Source: Spartobacteria bacterium (GTDB taxonomy: Bacteria > Verrucomicrobiota > Verrucomicrobiia > Chthoniobacterales > UBA10450). From it: a DNA stretch of 64,000 nucleotides. How positions within the stretch are numbered: the first letter of the stretch is position 1; every line of letters starts with the position of its first letter. The notes beneath the pieces were generated by a model that did no database searches, was not told where the DNA came from, and was given only the letters and a program-made list of their open reading frames with translations. Position numbers and translations under genes: made by a program. Positions 485 through 25,218 of this stretch are shown here, piece by piece. The DNA lies in the NCBI GenBank assembly GCA_003167365.1, contig PMTM01000004.1, positions 124,001 to 188,000 of the forward strand, written 5' to 3'.

Positions 485-1618
485 CTAAGCGCGCGCCATG
501 AGCGGCACGATCTTCTCTTTTGCCGCTGGCCTGATGTTCCAGTACCGCTCCGCCTCCTTCGGCTTAACGAGCTGGCGGTAGTGCTCGAAGATCATGCCGC
601 CGTCGGTGTGTCCCATTTCGAGCGCGAGCGCGGCAACGTCTTTGAAGTGCGCCAAGTGATAGCTCGCGAACGAGTGTCGCAATGCGTTATCCGGCCACTC
701 CGCGATGCCAGCCGCTGTGCGTGCCGCGTTGAACAGTTTGCGGAAATCGCTTGGTGTGACTTTGCCTCTGAGCTTCCGCGTTGGCAGCAGCCAATCGCGC
801 AGATTCGGCTGCATCTTCACGAAACGTCGCCGGGCCGTTTTAGCCTTCTCTGCCGTGACTTCGATCAGATCGCTGTCGAATTGAACGTCTGACCAATCCA
901 GCCGCTCCAGCTCAGCGCGGCGCAGTCCGGCAAACGCGCCGATCGTTACATACGGCAGCAACTCCGGCGAAGCAGCTTCGAGAAGGCGAGCCGTCTGAGT
1001 GATGGTGAGAATGCCCGGAATCTGATCAACAACCTTTGCCTTCGCAGTGTTCTCCGCTGGATTGCTGGTCGCGTAGCTGCACCGCATGGCATGGTTGAAC
1101 ATCACGACGAGCACGCGCCGGAAGTTGTTGCGTGAGATTGGCGAGACTTGGAGCGCACGCAACCAGTTGTCGATTTGCGCGCTTGTGATTGTCGCAACTA
1201 ATTGCCCGTCGAACTCGCGTGCGAAACGGTTGAGACGGGAACGTAAATCTTCCAGGTATCGCTTGCTCGCGCCGTCCGCTTTCTTGGCTGCGATCAGTTC
1301 GCCAACCAGAGTCGTTGTTGTGCAACTTTTCTCGCTCGCTTTCAAATGGGCGACCAAAAAGTCTGTCGCGTCTTTGAGCGTTTTGCCGTAGCCGCTCAGC
1401 CGTTCCGCGCACTCTTGCGCCATCTCCCGCAGCCGCGACGAAAACTCCGCGCCTTCAAGTCCAGACTTGCGTAGCTGCGCGTTCTTGAAAGCGGCAAATG
1501 CGCTGGCTTGCTCTTTTGTCTCGAAAAAACTGCGCTTCCGTTTTCCGGCCTCTCGGTAGTTCACTACGAACTTGAGCCGCGGATGCTTGTATTTTCTCAC
1601 CTGAAACCGTTTTCTCAT
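485..1618 (-). CDS. Tyrosine recombinase (phage-type integrase)
   Basis: This 377-aa site-specific recombinase would catalyse integration and excision of the element it belongs to. The N-terminal ~95 residues are basic and beta-rich (arm-type DNA binding). A core-binding SAM-like domain follows at about 105-190, and the catalytic domain is C-terminal. Visible catalytic elements are the first Arg in GLRRAEL, a Lys in AEKAKTARR, the second Arg in NALRHSF, the His in LGHTD and the nucleophilic Tyr in EHYRQL. The usual His of the HxxR box is Asn here. The gene starts about 140 bp from the 3' end of tRNA-Arg and is transcribed away from it, the standard arrangement for elements that use a tRNA 3' end as attB. 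No excisionase or cargo gene is visible. Confidence 0.9.
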   Translation of the reverse strand: MRKRFQVRKYKHPRLKFVVNYREAGKRKRSFFETKEQASAFAAFKNAQLRKSGLEGAEFSSRLREMAQECAERLSGYGKTLKDATDFLVAHLKASEKSCTTTTLVGELIAAKKADGASKRYLEDLRSRLNRFAREFDGQLVATITSAQIDNWLRALQVSPISRNNFRRVLVVMFNHAMRCSYATSNPAENTAKAKVVDQIPGILTITQTARLLEAASPELLPYVTIGAFAGLRRAELERLDWSDVQFDSDLIEVTAEKAKTARRRFVKMQPNLRDWLLPTRKLRGKVTPSDFRKLFNAARTAAGIAEWPDNALRHSFASYHLAHFKDVAALALEMGHTDGGMIFEHYRQLVKPKEAERYWNIRPAAKEKIVPLMARA

Positions 1619-1756
1619 GACTTATCCATTGCCATTCTATTGCCCTATTTACAAGTAAAATCGCGTTAAAATGGGGTTTTCGTGTCAGAACGAGTCACTC
1701 AAGCGAATGCGTGTTGCTCCTCGTTTTTACCTATGAAAAGGCGATTTTAGAGGGTG

Positions 1757-1830
1757 CGCGCCCGGAGTGACTCGAACACTCGACCTACGGATTAGAAATC
1801 CGTTGCTCTATCCGGCTGAGCTACGGGCGC
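1757..1830 (-). tRNA. tRNA-Arg (anticodon TCT)
   Basis: All four arms can be drawn by eye. The acceptor is GCGCCCG/CGGGCGC. The D-arm is in TAGCTCAGCCGGATAGAGC. The anticodon stem ACGGA/TCCGT carries loop TTTCTAA, and the T-arm contains GTTCGAGTC. The anticodon TCT reads AGA. CCA is not encoded. The 3' end faces the integrase gene, so its last ~20 bases are the likely attachment site. Confidence 0.95.
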
Positions 1831-5502: not shown

Positions 5503-6113
5503 AAATCCTGGCGCTCGAGATTTCAACCGCGCGCGGCAGCGCGGCGTGGCTGAATGGGGAGGTCGATCTGGTGCGCGAATGGCCGAACGATCGGAAGCAC
5601 TCCGGGTTGTTTTTTGAAAATCTCGCGGAGCTTCAAAAGCAATTTGATTTGCCGAAAACAATCATTGTCGGCTTAGGGCCGGGTTCCTATGCCGGCATTC
5701 GCATTGCCATCTCGACCGCGATTGGTTTGCAATTGGCCGCGAACGCGCGGCTCATGGGGTATCCATCCATTTGCGCTGTGGAAACGGAAGAAAACGAATA
5801 TTGCGTAATCGGTGATGCGCGCCGGAGTACGTTTTTCTTCGCGCGAATTCGGACCAACGATTTGGTCGAAGGTCCGACGTTGCTCAGCGAAGCTGAATTG
5901 AGAGAAAAACTGGATAAGCTCGAAGACAAGATGCCGATCTTTTCTTCAGAACCGCTTCCTCAATTTGAGCGCGCGGCGATTCGTTACCCGTCAGCTCAGG
6001 TTTTGGCTCGGCTTGCTCAAGACCCCGAGCGGAGTTTCTCTTTGCCGCCGCTTGAGCCGATGTATTTACGCGAGCCGCACATCACCATGCCAAGATCGGC
6101 CACCACTACATGA
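5499..6113 (+). CDS. tsaB: tRNA t6A-modification scaffold TsaB
   Basis: TsaB is an ASKHA-fold partner of TsaD in t6A synthesis and has no activity of its own. The 204-aa protein opens with MKILALEIST, matching the family's LAIDTS start. The GLGPGSYAGIRIAIS segment near residues 58-72 is the diagnostic TsaB region. The C-terminal half is weakly conserved, as usual. ATGA overlaps with tsaE upstream and alr downstream show a coupled operon; tsaD is not in the window. Confidence 0.92.
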   Translation: MKILALEISTARGSAAWLNGEVDLVREWPNDRKHSGLFFENLAELQKQFDLPKTIIVGLGPGSYAGIRIAISTAIGLQLAANARLMGYPSICAVETEENEYCVIGDARRSTFFFARIRTNDLVEGPTLLSEAELREKLDKLEDKMPIFSSEPLPQFERAAIRYPSAQVLARLAQDPERSFSLPPLEPMYLREPHITMPRSATTT

Positions 6114-7207
6114 ACGAAACCTATCGATGCTGGGCCGAGATCGATCGAAGCGCGCTACGGCACAACGCGAAGGTTGTGCGTGAGCGGACCGGATCGGTCG
6201 AGCTTCTCGCCATCGTGAAGGCGAATGCTTATGGGCATGGCATGGTCGGCGTCGCGGAGATGCTCGCGAACGACGCGCAATTGTTCGGTGTCGCGAACCT
6301 GGAAGAAGCGAGCACTCTTCGGAAAACGCTGTCTCATCCGATTATCATTCTCGGCCCGGCCATTCCGGAGGAAAGATCGGCAATCGCCAAGCGCGGATTC
6401 ATTGCCTCGGTTTCGACTTTGGAAGAAGCGCAAGCATTCGATCGCGCCGCGGGCGATCAAGCGCTCGCGATCAACTTTGTTGTCGATACCGGAATGGGAC
6501 GGATGGGAACGCCGGAATCGGACGCGCCGGATGTTTTCAAGAAAGTCGCCGCGTTGCCGAATATTCAAATTCATAGCATCTCCACCCATTTGCCGGTTTC
6601 GAATGAGGACGCGGATTACACGCGCGATGAACTTTCGCGGTTCGCGAAACTCGTTAAGCAATTTCGCGCTGAAGTTCCTGGAGATTACAAAGTGCACGTG
6701 CTGCCGAGCGCAGGCGTTCTCGCGTTCAGCGATCCGAGTTTCGATATCGTGCGCGCGGGCATCATGCTCTACGGCATTTCGCCACTTCCCGAGTTTCAGA
6801 AACTGCTGAAACCGGTCATGACATGGAAAACGAGAATCGGTCTCGTGCGCGATTTGCCGAAAGGCAGTTCCGTAAGCTACGGACGGACGTTCATCACGCC
6901 GCGAGAGATGCGGGTCGCGACGCTTTCCGCTGGCTACGCCGATGGTTATCCGCGGCATCTTTCCAATCGCGATACGACTGTTTTGGTCCACGGCAAACGC
7001 TGCTCGTTGCTTGGCCGCGTGACGATGGACCTGATGATGATCGATGTTTCAGAGATTGTTGAGGTCAAACCTGGTGATGAGGTTGTTTTGATGGGTCGAC
7101 AGGACGACGAGGAGATTTCGGCAAGCGAACTGGCGGAGCGCGCCGGCACAATCACTTGGGAAATTATTACGCGCATTGGCAGCCGCGTCCGGCGCGTTTA
7201 CGTTTGA
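6110..7207 (+). CDS. alr: Alanine racemase
   Basis: This PLP enzyme interconverts L- and D-alanine for peptidoglycan. The 365-aa protein carries the PLP lysine at residue 37 in IVKANAYGHG and the catalytic tyrosine in SAGYADGYPRH near 275. The GRVTMDLMMIDV active-site segment is near 304. Length and both domains (TIM barrel, then C-terminal beta domain) are complete. Its start overlaps the tsaB stop by 4 bp. A tsa-alr association occurs in many bacteria; here alr closes the conserved part of the operon. Confidence 0.96.
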   Translation: MNETYRCWAEIDRSALRHNAKVVRERTGSVELLAIVKANAYGHGMVGVAEMLANDAQLFGVANLEEASTLRKTLSHPIIILGPAIPEERSAIAKRGFIASVSTLEEAQAFDRAAGDQALAINFVVDTGMGRMGTPESDAPDVFKKVAALPNIQIHSISTHLPVSNEDADYTRDELSRFAKLVKQFRAEVPGDYKVHVLPSAGVLAFSDPSFDIVRAGIMLYGISPLPEFQKLLKPVMTWKTRIGLVRDLPKGSSVSYGRTFITPREMRVATLSAGYADGYPRHLSNRDTTVLVHGKRCSLLGRVTMDLMMIDVSEIVEVKPGDEVVLMGRQDDEEISASELAERAGTITWEIITRIGSRVRRVYV

Positions 7208-20790: not shown

Positions 20791-22092
20791 ATGAAGTTAA
20801 GTCGTTGCGCAACTTGCGCCGCTTCGGCATTCCTGGCGGTCACGCTGGTTTCAGGAGCTGCCCCGGAGCGTACGGTAAGCACTTCACGGCAGTTCATCGT
20901 TTATGGCGCCGACGTTTCGCTACGAGGAGCGATCTCTCGTCGGGCTGAAGAAACGAAAGCTAATTTGCTTTCGCTTCTCCGACGACCCGATTCGTGGAAA
21001 ACGCCGATTGTAATTAATCTGCAATTCCCGCGGGCGAATTTGCCGGAGGTCCCGCCGGCTGCTCTCCACTTCAGTCAGACCGGGTTCGGTTTGAAACTCC
21101 AACTCGATCTTATCATCGCGCCCAACTTCAATAGCGCGGCAACCGAGCGCGAGTGGTTGCGAGCCATTTTGCTGGAAATGATTTACCGCGATCGGGGAGA
21201 CATCGCTGCCGGCACGGCTTATGTCGATCCGCCGGACTGGCTGCTCGACGGCGTGCTCGCTCACGCGGCGGACCGTGACTCGAAACCGTTGGCCGAGGCT
21301 CTGGAACCTCTGGTTGGCATCGATAAAATCATGCCGCTCTCAGAATTTCTTCGGCCCCGAAAGCTTGCGGGGCTCGATTCACCAGCGCGCATTCTTTATC
21401 GCGCCTATTCCGCTGCGTTTGTGAAATGGCTGGTCGATGAGCCGGAAGGTCAATCCCGGCTCGGTTTGTACATCGACAATCTTTCGCGTAATTCCGCCGA
21501 ACCACTGGCGGGCCTGAAAGCGCATTTTGCCGCGCTAAACGACCCCGCGGTTGAGCAAATTTGGAAGACGCGGGTAATGCGCTTCTGCAATTCGCAGAGT
21601 TATCGATTGCTAACGTTCGAGGAAACGCAGCAGCGTCTTGACGAAATACTGGCCATCAAAGTTGCGGCCCGCGGAAACGAAAGCAGCGCGGTTAAACTGG
21701 AGGATTTATCGCGACGCAGGCTTTCTCCCGAGGAGTCTACTGCTCTCGAAGAAATGAGTCGAAGACTCTTGTTTCTTGGTTTGAGTTCCAATCCTGTTCT
21801 CCGTCCGATCATTACGGAATATCAGCAGGTCGCGGCGCTTCTCGCCGCCGGCAAACGCTCGAGAACCGGCGAGCGGCTCGCGCGGCTCCGAGTGTTGCGG
21901 GCGAACCTCGCCATTCGAATGAGCAAGATTGACGATTACCTGAATTGGTTTGAAGCGACCCAGGCGCGCACGAAGAGCGGCGCGTTCGAAAATTATCTGA
22001 ACGCAGTCGAACAACAGAGCGATGCCGCGCCGCGCCGGCACGATGCGATCTCGGTTTATCTGGACGCACTGGCGGAACAGTTCCAAAATTGA
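20791..22092 (+). CDS. Secreted protein of unknown function
   Basis: The 433-aa product has a signal peptide (about 1-23, ...LVSGAAPE). The central part around REWLRAILLEMIYRDRG and PPDWLLDGVLAHAADRD has the look of a metallopeptidase-like scaffold of the gluzincin type, but the HExxH site is absent (LEMIY in its place), so it would be inactive if related. The C-terminal half is helical, with ERLARLRVLRANLAIRMSKIDDYLNWFE. I do not recognise the family. A VOC gene starts 6 bp after its stop. Confidence 0.6.
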   Translation: MKLSRCATCAASAFLAVTLVSGAAPERTVSTSRQFIVYGADVSLRGAISRRAEETKANLLSLLRRPDSWKTPIVINLQFPRANLPEVPPAALHFSQTGFGLKLQLDLIIAPNFNSAATEREWLRAILLEMIYRDRGDIAAGTAYVDPPDWLLDGVLAHAADRDSKPLAEALEPLVGIDKIMPLSEFLRPRKLAGLDSPARILYRAYSAAFVKWLVDEPEGQSRLGLYIDNLSRNSAEPLAGLKAHFAALNDPAVEQIWKTRVMRFCNSQSYRLLTFEETQQRLDEILAIKVAARGNESSAVKLEDLSRRRLSPEESTALEEMSRRLLFLGLSSNPVLRPIITEYQQVAALLAAGKRSRTGERLARLRVLRANLAIRMSKIDDYLNWFEATQARTKSGAFENYLNAVEQQSDAAPRRHDAISVYLDALAEQFQN

Positions 22093-22098
22093 TTTGTC

Positions 22099-22458
22099 AT
22101 GCACAAATCTCTCCCAAACACGATCGACTACGTCGAAATGCCTTCACAGAATCTCGCCGAGACGAAGCGCTTTTTCTCCGCGCTCTTTGGCTGGACCTTT
22201 CAAGATTACGGACCGGACTATGCCGCCTTTGATGATGGGCGCATGACCGGCGGGTTTTTCGCGTCTGAGAAAACCTCCAACGTCGAATCAGGTGCGCCGC
22301 TCGTCGTCTTTTATCATCGCGAGCTAGAGAAGATGCAGAAACAGGCTGCCGAGCTTGGCGGCAAGATCACAAAAGAGATTTTTGAATTTCCCGGCGGCCA
22401 CCGTTTTCATTTTCGCGAACCCGGCGGCGGCGAATTCGCGATCTGGTCGGACGGATAA
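22099..22458 (+). CDS. VOC-family (glyoxalase-like) protein
   Basis: A 119-aa single-domain protein of the vicinal-oxygen-chelate superfamily: IDYVEMPSQNLAETKRFFSALFGWTF is the typical first beta-alpha-beta unit, and the C-terminus FHFREPGGGEFAIWSD carries the usual metal-side EPxGxxFxIW. Such proteins range from lactoylglutathione lyases to antibiotic-binding proteins, so the substrate cannot be stated. It is the last ordinary gene before the attC cluster, in the opposite orientation to the cassettes. Confidence 0.85.
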   Translation: MHKSLPNTIDYVEMPSQNLAETKRFFSALFGWTFQDYGPDYAAFDDGRMTGGFFASEKTSNVESGAPLVVFYHRELEKMQKQAAELGGKITKEIFEFPGGHRFHFREPGGGEFAIWSDG

Positions 22459-22499
22459 TTGAGGAGGCATTCGCTGCGGCGCGCGCGGTTGCGTTTAAG

Positions 22500-22556
22500 G
22501 CCTAAGTAAAGTGAGGCGTGCGCCGGCCAGCGGTTGGCTGCATCGCCTGGTTAGAC
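22500..22556 (-). repeat. attC site 4 (terminal, short, degenerate)
   Basis: The site runs from GTCTAAC (22550-22556) to TTAGGC-like bases near 22500. The inner arms AGGCG/CGCCT pair. The distal core reads CTTAGGC rather than GTTRRRY, so this terminal site may be inactive. It contains the AGCCAACCGCTGGCCGGCGC stretch typical of attC families from environmental integrons. Confidence 0.7.
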
Positions 22557-23018
22557 TTCTTCTTCCGCAGCATGTTGCCTTCCAACGAACCACCAAACCA
22601 CGCCGACGCACGTAAATATCCCCGCTGCGAAGACCCCGATATAGGCACCATAAAGCCATGTGGCGCCAAATCCGCGAAGCGCAAGAATATAAAGCCAATA
22701 AATTGTTCCTGCGCACAAAAGCAGTTCGAGGACTTGAAAGAACCATCGCCATCGAGAGCCGATGCATCTGCGGACGAAAAGAACGAGGACAAGAGGCCAC
22801 GTAAAAGCTAAAGCCGTAACGGCACCGAACCAAGTAAAGCTTAACCACCGATAGGCGTACTGGTAAGTAGTGTCTGCGTTAGTCTGAGGAAACAATTGTT
22901 GTGAGATGGATTTCGAGACTGGCGGAGAATGGGTGCCTCCCTGCGAGCATTCGCTGAGCGGCAAGAAAATCGCACAGGCCAAGACAATCGCCGCAATTAA
23001 TCGTACCTTGTGCAGCAT
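22551..23018 (-). CDS. Cassette ORF: membrane protein of unknown function
   Basis: A 155-aa product with an N-terminal signal or transmembrane segment (MLHKVRLIAAIVLACAIFLP) and about three further spans (WFGAVTALAFTWPLVLVLF, FFQVLELLLCAGTIYWLYIL, LYGAYIGVFAAGIFTCVGVV). The frame stays open upstream through the attC site, but the ATG at 23018 lies just after that site and is the natural cassette start. The TAA stop lies inside the next attC core, as usual in cassettes. Function unknown. Confidence 0.7.
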   Translation of the reverse strand: MLHKVRLIAAIVLACAIFLPLSECSQGGTHSPPVSKSISQQLFPQTNADTTYQYAYRWLSFTWFGAVTALAFTWPLVLVLFVRRCIGSRWRWFFQVLELLLCAGTIYWLYILALRGFGATWLYGAYIGVFAAGIFTCVGVVWWFVGRQHAAEEEV

Positions 23019-23026
23019 CGGGATTA

Positions 23027-23149
23027 GTCTAACGAGAACAAGCTGAGCGACGGCCACCGGGAGCGAGCGTCGCTCGAACTGAAGAGGTTTTAGCCACGCA
23101 AAAGGTGAACGCAAAGCGGGTGGCCGTTCGCTCCAGCGCTTGGTTAGAC
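23027..23149 (-). repeat. attC site 3
   Basis: The 123-bp site is bounded by GTCTAAC and GTTAGAC. The arms GAGCGACGGCCACC and GGTGGCCGTTCGCTC pair with one extra base in the minus-strand 5' arm, which sets the orientation the same as the cassette genes. Confidence 0.88.
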
Positions 23150-23162
23150 GTAAACGGCAACG

Positions 23163-23567
23163 TCATTTTGGCTTGCTGCTGTAATGACCAAAAATGGTGC
23201 AAGGGCCTCGCAGCGGCCTCGGGCCCGAAGCACCTTTTAGCTTTGCCGCGGCACACGCTGCTACCGGTTGATTCGGTGTATAAGCGATTCGCGTAATCTT
23301 GCCATCCGAGGAGACTTTGAACGCCATGTCGAAGTCGTAATTCTTTGAACCAGTGCACGAGTTGATAGCGGCAATCGTTTTCGGACTGACCGCTGCCAAG
23401 AATTTGACCTCGTACATCATGCCCTCCGGAGTTGAACAAAGTTGTTGATCCTCACGAAGGGCTCGAGCGAGTTCGTCTTCCGTAGCACCTGCCGTGTTGA
23501 ACGACAACACCAACGCAATGGCACAGACCGACGCTATTCGGATCGCAGTGAAGTAAATTGGGTTCAT
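23163..23567 (-). CDS. Cassette ORF: secreted protein of unknown function
   Basis: A 134-aa product with a signal peptide (about residues 1-29, ending AGATE). The mature part has five cysteines (LCSTPEG, NSCTGSK, AACAAAK, RGPCTIF) that could form disulfides. It may resemble small periplasmic proteins of proteobacterial cassettes. It starts 49 bp from the preceding attC core and ends 13 bp before the next one. No domain is recognised. Confidence 0.7.
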   Translation of the reverse strand: MNPIYFTAIRIASVCAIALVLSFNTAGATEDELARALREDQQLCSTPEGMMYEVKFLAAVSPKTIAAINSCTGSKNYDFDMAFKVSSDGKITRIAYTPNQPVAACAAAKLKGASGPRPLRGPCTIFGHYSSKPK

Positions 23568-23615
23568 AAATCTACATTCGCATCTTACGGAGTCAGCATC
23601 GGCACAAGCAATTAC

Positions 23616-23739
23616 ATCTAACGAGACGGAGCTGAGCCACCGCTGGCGGGAGCGAGCGTGGCAGACATCGAGAACTGTTTCATAAAATTAAATCTTGTCA
23701 TCACAGCAGCCAGCGGTTGGCTCGAGCGATTGGTTAGAT
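23616..23739 (-). repeat. attC site 2
   Basis: The 124-bp site is bounded by ATCTAAC and GTTAGAT. The arms GAGCCACCGCTGGC and GCCAGCGGTTGGCTC pair with one extra base in the minus-strand 5' arm. Confidence 0.88.
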
Positions 23740-23754
23740 CGCTTTTGCGAGTTG

Positions 23755-24150
23755 TTACTTCTTGTCGTCCTCAAGGCAATGCCACTGACCATCAGAGCGT
23801 TTCTCAAACACGAATCCGTAACCCTGGCTGTGAGTGATCAGGCCACCCCCTTCAGGATGACTAATGCGAATCGCAGCACTCGTCATTTTAGCGCGCTCAA
23901 CTTCTTTCTTAAAAAATGTCGCCCAGATCTCGTCCACTTCTTTCCGCAAATTGACCTTGTCACTCATCGGGATATCCGTTTGGCAATTCATTACCAGCGC
24001 AGCTGGGCCCTTCGGAAAGACCATGGGCATGATGCTCGTGATCTTAATCTGCCTTCCCGATGGGAGTGTCGTGTTGGATGACGCTCTCCGAACACAGCTG
24101 CCGCAGCACAAGGCGAGAACGATCAGAGCGATACGAGTAACCTTCGTCAT
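23755..24150 (-). CDS. Cassette ORF: exported protein of unknown function
   Basis: A 131-aa product. The N-terminus MTKVTRIALIVLALCCGSC looks like a lipoprotein-type signal with a cysteine near 15-19. The rest (TTLPSGRQIKITSIMPMVFP, VNLRKEVDEIWATFFKKEVE, RISHPEGGG) has no known motif. The start is set at the ATG just past the attC; the frame stays open farther upstream only because the site itself lacks stops. Confidence 0.68.
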   Translation of the reverse strand: MTKVTRIALIVLALCCGSCVRRASSNTTLPSGRQIKITSIMPMVFPKGPAALVMNCQTDIPMSDKVNLRKEVDEIWATFFKKEVERAKMTSAAIRISHPEGGGLITHSQGYGFVFEKRSDGQWHCLEDDKK

Positions 24151-24155
24151 AGGCG

Positions 24156-24278
24156 ATCTAACGAGAACAAGATGAGCGACGACCACCAAGAGCGGGCATA
24201 AGTCGCAGCGAAGAGGTTTTAGCGACGCAAAACGTGAACGCACAGCGGGTGGCCGTTCGCTCCATCGCCTGGTTAGGT
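24156..24278 (-). repeat. attC site 1
   Basis: The 123-bp site lies between ATCTAAC and GTTAGGT. The sequence is close to attC site 3 (same GGCCGTTCGCTCC and AGAGGTTTTAGC parts), so both belong to one attC subfamily. Confidence 0.88.
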
Positions 24279-24554
24279 CTGCGGGATCGCATCATCGACA
24301 ACTGTCCATCTAAACTGCTCCTGGAAATCGCGAAAGCAAGGCTCGCAAATCCAGTGATAATCATCGGTCGTAGCATAACCCTCGTGCAACACGTCTGGTC
24401 GATCTTCGACCATGAACTTCGCCCAGCAGAATGCACAATGGTCGTGGTCCCAATCCCGGTTCGCGGTGTAGCGGCGATATGCACGGTGAACGAGAGTCAC
24501 GCCAGCGAGATATTTTTCCTGCCCGCGGAGTCGCCAATCGGAAGCTTCTGTCAT
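24273..24554 (-). CDS. Cassette ORF: small putative zinc protein
   Basis: A 93-aa product beginning MTEASDWRLRGQEKYLAG. The motif HDHCAFCWAKF (Cys-x2-Cys) plus HWICEPCF (Cys-x2-Cys) would make a four-cysteine zinc site. The frame runs 20 codons further upstream, but the ATG at 24554 lies just after the truncated attC core (24569-24575) and is preferred. Its TAA stop is inside attC site 1. Proteins of this kind are common in environmental cassettes; function unknown. Confidence 0.7.
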   Translation of the reverse strand: MTEASDWRLRGQEKYLAGVTLVHRAYRRYTANRDWDHDHCAFCWAKFMVEDRPDVLHEGYATTDDYHWICEPCFRDFQEQFRWTVVDDAIPQT

Positions 24555-24568
24555 GCACGCGTCATAGA

Positions 24569-24575
24569 ACCTAAC
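24569..24575 (-). other. Truncated attC/attI core
   Basis: On the minus strand this reads TTCTCGTTAGGT, identical to the end of the other attC sites. The bases before it (CATCTTGCAGGCCAA) share CATCTTG with attC site 1, so it is best read as the surviving right end of a lost attC or attI site. Confidence 0.5.
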
Positions 24576-24783
24576 GAGAATTGGCCTGCAAGATGCCGTG
24601 AAAAAAGGCGGCATGATGCGGCCTATTTCTTATCGTCGCTGGGGAGAATGCCGTAAAAGACTGCACTGAGATAATGTTACCTCCAGTGTCGGAGGCGACA
24701 CAAGGTCGATCTTGCGGCAGTTGCTCACGCGAAGGTTGGTGCTTATCATAGGCGGCGCAGCGTAGTGCGCGTTTTCGTTTCTC

Positions 24784-25218
24784 ATGCAAAAAATTGGATT
24801 TGCCGAAGCTCTTGATTCGATCGTGGCGAACGATCCGCGTTATCAACGCGATGCTTATGTCTTCCTGCGGGACGCACTCGATTACACGACGAAGCAACAG
24901 AAGAAGGTTCGCGGGACAACAGTGCGCCACGTGGCCGGTCCGGAGTTGCTCGACGGTGTGCGGCAGTACGCGCTCAAGGAATTTGGGCCGTTGGTGGTCA
25001 CCGTTTTTGAATCCTGGGGAATCAAGTGCTGCGAAGATATCGGGCACATGGTGTTCAATTTGATCGAGGCCGGGGTTTTCGGAAAAACGGAGGAAGATTC
25101 GATGGAAGATTTCAAGGCCGTTTACGATTTCCAGGACGCGTTTGTAAAGCCGTTCGCTCCCGATGAACCGATTTCGAAAAAACTTCCAAAAAGTTTGCCG
25201 GCACCGAAATCTATATGA
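24784..25218 (+). CDS. Minf_1886 / TIGR04138 family protein
   Basis: A 144-aa protein matching a family known almost only from Planctomycetes and Verrucomicrobia: IVANDPRYQRDAYVFLRDALDYT, RHVAGPELLDGVRQYALKEFGPL and WGIKCCEDIGHMVFNLIEAG are diagnostic. Its role is unknown. The gene ends 4 bp inside the start of the M16 peptidase, and it is the main taxonomic marker in this window. Confidence 0.88.
   Translation: MQKIGFAEALDSIVANDPRYQRDAYVFLRDALDYTTKQQKKVRGTTVRHVAGPELLDGVRQYALKEFGPLVVTVFESWGIKCCEDIGHMVFNLIEAGVFGKTEEDSMEDFKAVYDFQDAFVKPFAPDEPISKKLPKSLPAPKSI

Follow-up and report, generated by a model that had tools for sequence, protein, structure and literature searches.

Clusters of attC sites lacking an integron integrase (CALINs) usually come to notice only as leftovers, and whether they arose by loss of the integrase gene (intI), insertion in trans or rearrangement has had to be guessed. 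CALINs are a standard class, comprising at least two attC and no IntI (PMC9024848). A review has already covered integrons in Verrucomicrobiota and named the loss of intI as one origin of CALINs (PMC8618304). The array described here lies in a 64 kb stretch of DNA (the window, the whole of which was analyzed) and, like the CALINs of IntegronFinder (PMC9024848), it has at least two attC with one ORF each, a single orientation, and no IntI nearby or detected elsewhere in the assembly. By this published definition it is a CALIN, its sites being called with a covariance model made from the genome's own attC. Unlike CALINs in general, the array still has a relic of attI, which reveals its class of origin. 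We put the probability at roughly 80% that it derives from a once complete integron which lost intI by deletion and which was chromosomal in a soil bacterium of the Chthoniobacterales (Candidatus Udaeobacter type).

Homologues of the window's M16 peptidase, mostly from soil MAGs, put the lineage in Chthoniobacterales near Candidatus Udaeobacter, and the contigs of these relatives are titled Candidatus Udaeobacter, Spartobacteria, or Chthoniobacterales. The initial annotation, made from the sequence alone, had proposed a CALIN in a verrucomicrobial chromosome, and both parts of that proposal hold. The attC of the window's type were found in 64 of 78 related genomes (the window's included) and in all 49 members of the same bacterial family. 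IntI was detected at E ≤ 1e-30 in 53 of 117 related genomes (45 above the curated cut-off), and in 27 of the 49 family members. The divergent order of intI, attI, and cassettes occurs in several relatives. Complete sedentary chromosomal integrons of the same family (e.g., G044:C10, locus L170, and G006:C18, locus L171) share with the window the attC family, a related attI, and the divergent layout; in contrast to them, the window has no intI and only a short array that closes with a damaged attC. An uncommon layout was seen in one relative (L177, G038:C24), where intI (5922-6887, plus strand) and the attC (from 7335, plus strand) are on the same strand and not divergent. Integron integrases related to the family's IntI are also encoded on 44 contigs classed as viral (L219-L262).

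An independent scan for R''/R' cores with an inner stem found exactly three complete attC in the 64 kb window, all on the minus strand and at the place given by the initial annotation. In the order of the cassettes that they end, these are attC A (24156..24278, ACCTAAC ... GTTAGAT, 123 bp, cassette 1), attC C (23616..23739, ATCTAAC ... GTTAGAT, 124 bp, cassette 2), and attC B (23027..23149, GTCTAAC ... GTTAGAC, 123 bp, cassette 3). All three carry RYYYAAC/GTTRRRY cores at their ends, confirming the three sites of ~123 bp with such ends that had been described. The same scan returned no site in four dinucleotide shuffles, and 60 simulated sequences of 64 kb yielded a single attC-like site. The proposed check with an attC covariance model matched all three sites (model R1; 122.2, 116, and 133.9 bits for A, C, and B), although they are among the eight of the genome's own attC from which the model was built and so match by construction; the model also finds arrays beside intI in other genera. 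The three complete attC lie within 1.3 kb; a CALIN requires two or more attC separated by less than 4 kb. An Rfam scan of the window region gave no match, which counts neither for nor against attC, and searches of phage and plasmid collections with the attC sequence were negative.

One spacer of each complete site measures 5 nt, the opposite one about 8-9 nt. In each site, two extra bases of the inner stem remain unpaired, and both belong to the 5' arm of the minus (coding) strand; the initial annotation had placed the asymmetry in the correct arm but had counted a single extra base. This imperfect palindrome, with unpaired bases confined to one arm and a structure better conserved than its sequence, has the asymmetry of attC, and the bottom strand of attC B folds with a z of -3.30. 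In eight attC of the window's genome, 94.3% of the cells pair and two-sided changes affect 8 of the 24 pairs, and pairing drops to at most 45% once the partner is slid by 1-3 columns. Among 39 attC from intI-linked contigs of other genera, 94.8% of the cells pair and 13 of 24 pairs change on both sides, in an alignment fitted to the structure, which raises the figure. The attC A, B, and C therefore share one fold kept by strong compensatory change. The array ends with a half or short attC (22499..22556, minus strand), recognized from its alignment with the three complete sites and its fold, and scoring only 14.4 bits with R1. The short terminal site reported earlier keeps only the 5' half (arm) of the family type, with a short hairpin and a damaged R' (CTTAGGC).

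The minus strand encodes four ORFs, one per attC, whose realistic start positions are 24554, 24150, 23567, and 23018. Cassette ORF 1 (24273..24554) encodes a Cys-rich protein of 93 aa with two CxxC motifs, and its stop codon lies within attC A. ORF 2 (23755..24150, 131 aa) has a hydrophobic N-terminus with a Cys and is predicted to be probably an exported lipoprotein. ORF 3 (23163..23567, 134 aa) has a signal-peptide-like N-terminus, and ORF 4 (22551..23018, 155 aa) encodes a predicted membrane protein and stops within the core of the terminal attC. The stops of ORF 1 and ORF 4 are the TAA inside RYYTAAC, which bears out the earlier description of four co-oriented ORFs, two of them stopping inside an attC core; several ORFs in the other arrays of the genome end likewise. 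No function was assigned to the four ORFs by Pfam, NCBIfam, PHROGs, or PADLOC. ORF 1 is 39.6% identical to a protein on a Miltoncostaea plasmid, a distant relative, whereas a search of 116 other related genomes gave no homologue. For ORF 3, a distant homologue in the family member G006 sits between attC sites, a placement that fits cassette traffic within the family. Among 20 ORFs of the genome's arrays, the notable domains were limited to SnoaL/DUF4440-like and TonB_C, and there was no convincing defence match.

The array reads away from an attI at its 5' end, with the ORFs and attC all on the minus strand. This attI relic (24569..24632, plus strand), read in the direction of intI, consists of the core (A)CCTAAC, GAGAA, a hairpin, and GGCCTA. 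Its GTTAGGT on the minus strand (24569-24575) is what the initial annotation had listed as a truncated core; a profile match assigns it to attI and not to an attC fragment. The profile was built from the attI-to-intI starts of 12 relatives, with the window left out, and matched window positions 24570-24687 with 29.3 bits (nhmmer, E = 4.8e-8), against a best score of 8.5 bits in 60 simulated windows. When the whole genome was searched with the attI model R2, the relic had an E of 1.8e-7. The hairpin (z = -3.98) was more stable than those of 200 out of 200 shuffles. From these sequence matches, we identify 24569-24632 as a degenerate relic of attI, which is the docking site usually found next to intI, and 24569-24575 as its crossover end. 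Following it at the same position as in relatives is a possible intI stub (24674..24704, plus strand), an ATG and about 10 codons (MLPPVSEATQ) that then join the conserved GTCGATCTTGCG in the promoter region of the next gene. That this stretch of about 11 codons was the intI start is speculative.

The chromosomal context was compared with that of relatives. To the left of the array, a gene for a 433-aa protein (20791..22092, plus strand; conserved and syntenic in relatives by tblastn) is followed by one for a VOC/glyoxalase-fold protein (22099..22458, plus strand; Pfam PF00903), and to the right lies a gene of TIGR04138, a Planctomycetes/Verrucomicrobia family in NCBIfam (24784..25218, plus strand). 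The gene order of the 433-aa gene, VOC, TIGR04138, and M16 is kept in many relatives, with VOC frequently absent. Most relatives have a short empty junction, with a gap of about 70-400 bp ahead of TIGR04138, so the cluster is not fixed by descent; fixation in all relatives would have spoken against integron cassettes. Because homology to the empty sites breaks off at ~22457, at the end of the VOC gene, and resumes at ~24703, the cassette cluster is an insertion.

One relative carries an integron at the same junction (L154; JAJPGZ010000006.1, Centralia_MAG_126). Like the window, L154 has an attI, attC of the family (two), the same orientation, and a defective integrase gene. It differs from the window in that its cassettes are different, its attI is better preserved, and its intI has lost the middle, whereas the window's intI has lost nearly everything. 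Codons 1-38 of the L154 intI are joined to codons 299-319 (about codons 39-298 are deleted), and the gene ends 8 bases from the same conserved flank stretch (GTCGATCTTGCG). Counting against the reading as a simple loss of intI, genomes nearer to the window than L154 by M16 identity have empty sites, so that this junction must have seen either repeated gains or frequent losses of the integron. Other genes were also observed between VOC and TIGR04138: a methyltransferase gene and others resembling a restriction-modification island in L149 (5460-9472), and other genes again in L127. The gap therefore also tolerates unrelated insertions, and the junction may be an insertion hotspot. Elsewhere in the window, a gene for a 377-aa phage-type tyrosine recombinase (485-1618, minus strand) adjoins a tRNA-Arg gene (1756-1830, minus strand), a pair that may mark one end of an integrated element.

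The genome of the window (3.13 Mb in 24 contigs) was searched for intI and further attC, as the initial annotation had advised. No match to the integron integrase family TIGR02249 exceeded the cut-off in the whole assembly, and no IntI match was found near the array in the window. A search with the IntI of a relative recovered only other tyrosine recombinases in the genome, whose alignments to the IntI profile skip the IntI-specific region. The attC covariance model detected 25 sites genome-wide at E < 0.001, its eight training sites included by construction, on contigs 1, 5, 7, 11, 16, 18, 21, 23, and 24. There are two further strong attI heads, at C5:40980 (this attI being among the training sites of the genome-wide attI model) and at C24:133363. 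In both of them intI continues for only about 20 codons. A weaker head at C1:505764 has no intI. Weaker matches to the attI model on contigs C14 and C12 have the hairpin, with no attC detected, and may be terminators. Similar palindromic repeats of the GTAGCGGCGGTCTATGACCGCCG type lie directly after both truncated intI starts (L035:5080-5260 on C5, and L206 near C24:133363); such repeats may have helped the intI deletions at C5 and C24. Core boxes are intact in 17 of the genome's 25 attC and in 32 of 39 attC of relatives (p = 0.23, not significant), so that decay of the genome's sites is only weakly indicated. The genome's non-training attC score lower (median 82 vs 99 bits, p = 0.003), in samples that are unmatched.

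The initial annotation had left two origins side by side, acquisition of the cassettes in trans or an integrase since lost. The second is favoured because of the attI relic beside the array, the gutted intI of L154 at the same site, and the other beheaded attI/intI starts in the genome, and intI deletion, repeated at several integrons, is the best fit to the data. A complete integron would once have occupied the site between the VOC and TIGR04138 genes, consisting of a plus-strand intI, attI, and minus-strand cassettes. IntI would have recombined the folded bottom strand of attC and so put the cassettes in singly at attI. A subsequent deletion would have removed all of intI beyond roughly its first codons, so that attI, four cassettes, and the damaged last attC remained. 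We infer that intI was lost in place, that the stub after attI was formerly part of it, and that the window's cassettes would be immobile unless IntI were supplied from elsewhere.

A functional intI may instead lie in an assembly gap, in which case the genome would not be integrase-free and the window's cassettes might still move in trans. Draft genomes overestimate CALINs (PMC9024848), and some contigs of this assembly start or stop in arrays or at attI-like sequence, so that arrays, possibly with an intI, may have been lost in gaps: an attI-like match at C7:42-82 (L032; 16 bits, E = 0.023, weak) is cut by the start of its contig at the point expected for the beginning of intI, and on contig C1 only 12 bases separate an attC (L031:9866-9988) from the contig end. 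However, the genome is rated 100% complete in its 24 contigs, and the better-supported heads show intI breaking off within contigs. A hidden integrase is unlikely; even if present, it would leave room for a local intI loss in the window. Off-target insertion of cassettes, one proposed origin of CALINs (PMC8618304), would have been catalyzed in trans by the IntI of another integron in the cell, with no integrase ever at the window locus. The presence of attC at many places in the genome, including lone attC on several contigs without a detected attI, agrees with such events, but off-target insertion would bring no attI, and the attI relic heading the window array therefore counts against it, as do the attI and broken intI of L154 at the same junction; we regard this origin as quite improbable for the window. 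Although REP-like palindromes occur in the genome (e.g., beside the C5 and C24 intI stubs), a dispersed palindromic repeat (REP or MITE-like) in place of attC has a negligible probability and was rejected, since the window's repeats lie one gene apart in a single orientation with gene stops inside R'', have unpaired bases in one arm with compensatory change, and belong to a type whose arrays adjoin intI and attI in relatives.

The cluster is a well-resolved case of an already known kind, in one of the commonest soil lineages. No previous account of integrons in the Candidatus Udaeobacter group came to light in the open-access papers searched. A single junction shows stages across related genomes: an empty site, an integron with a gutted intI, and an array without intI. 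There is about an even chance that the Candidatus Udaeobacter group has an integron system spanning the family, with this strain holding at least four separate integrons, each deprived of intI and keeping attI and cassettes. If that is true, the integrase would have been shed repeatedly in this group and the captured cassettes retained. Udaeobacter is among the commonest soil bacteria. One attC family runs through an entire family of soil bacteria that are abundant and for the most part uncultured; some of the numerous cassettes in soil DNA could therefore plausibly come from them.
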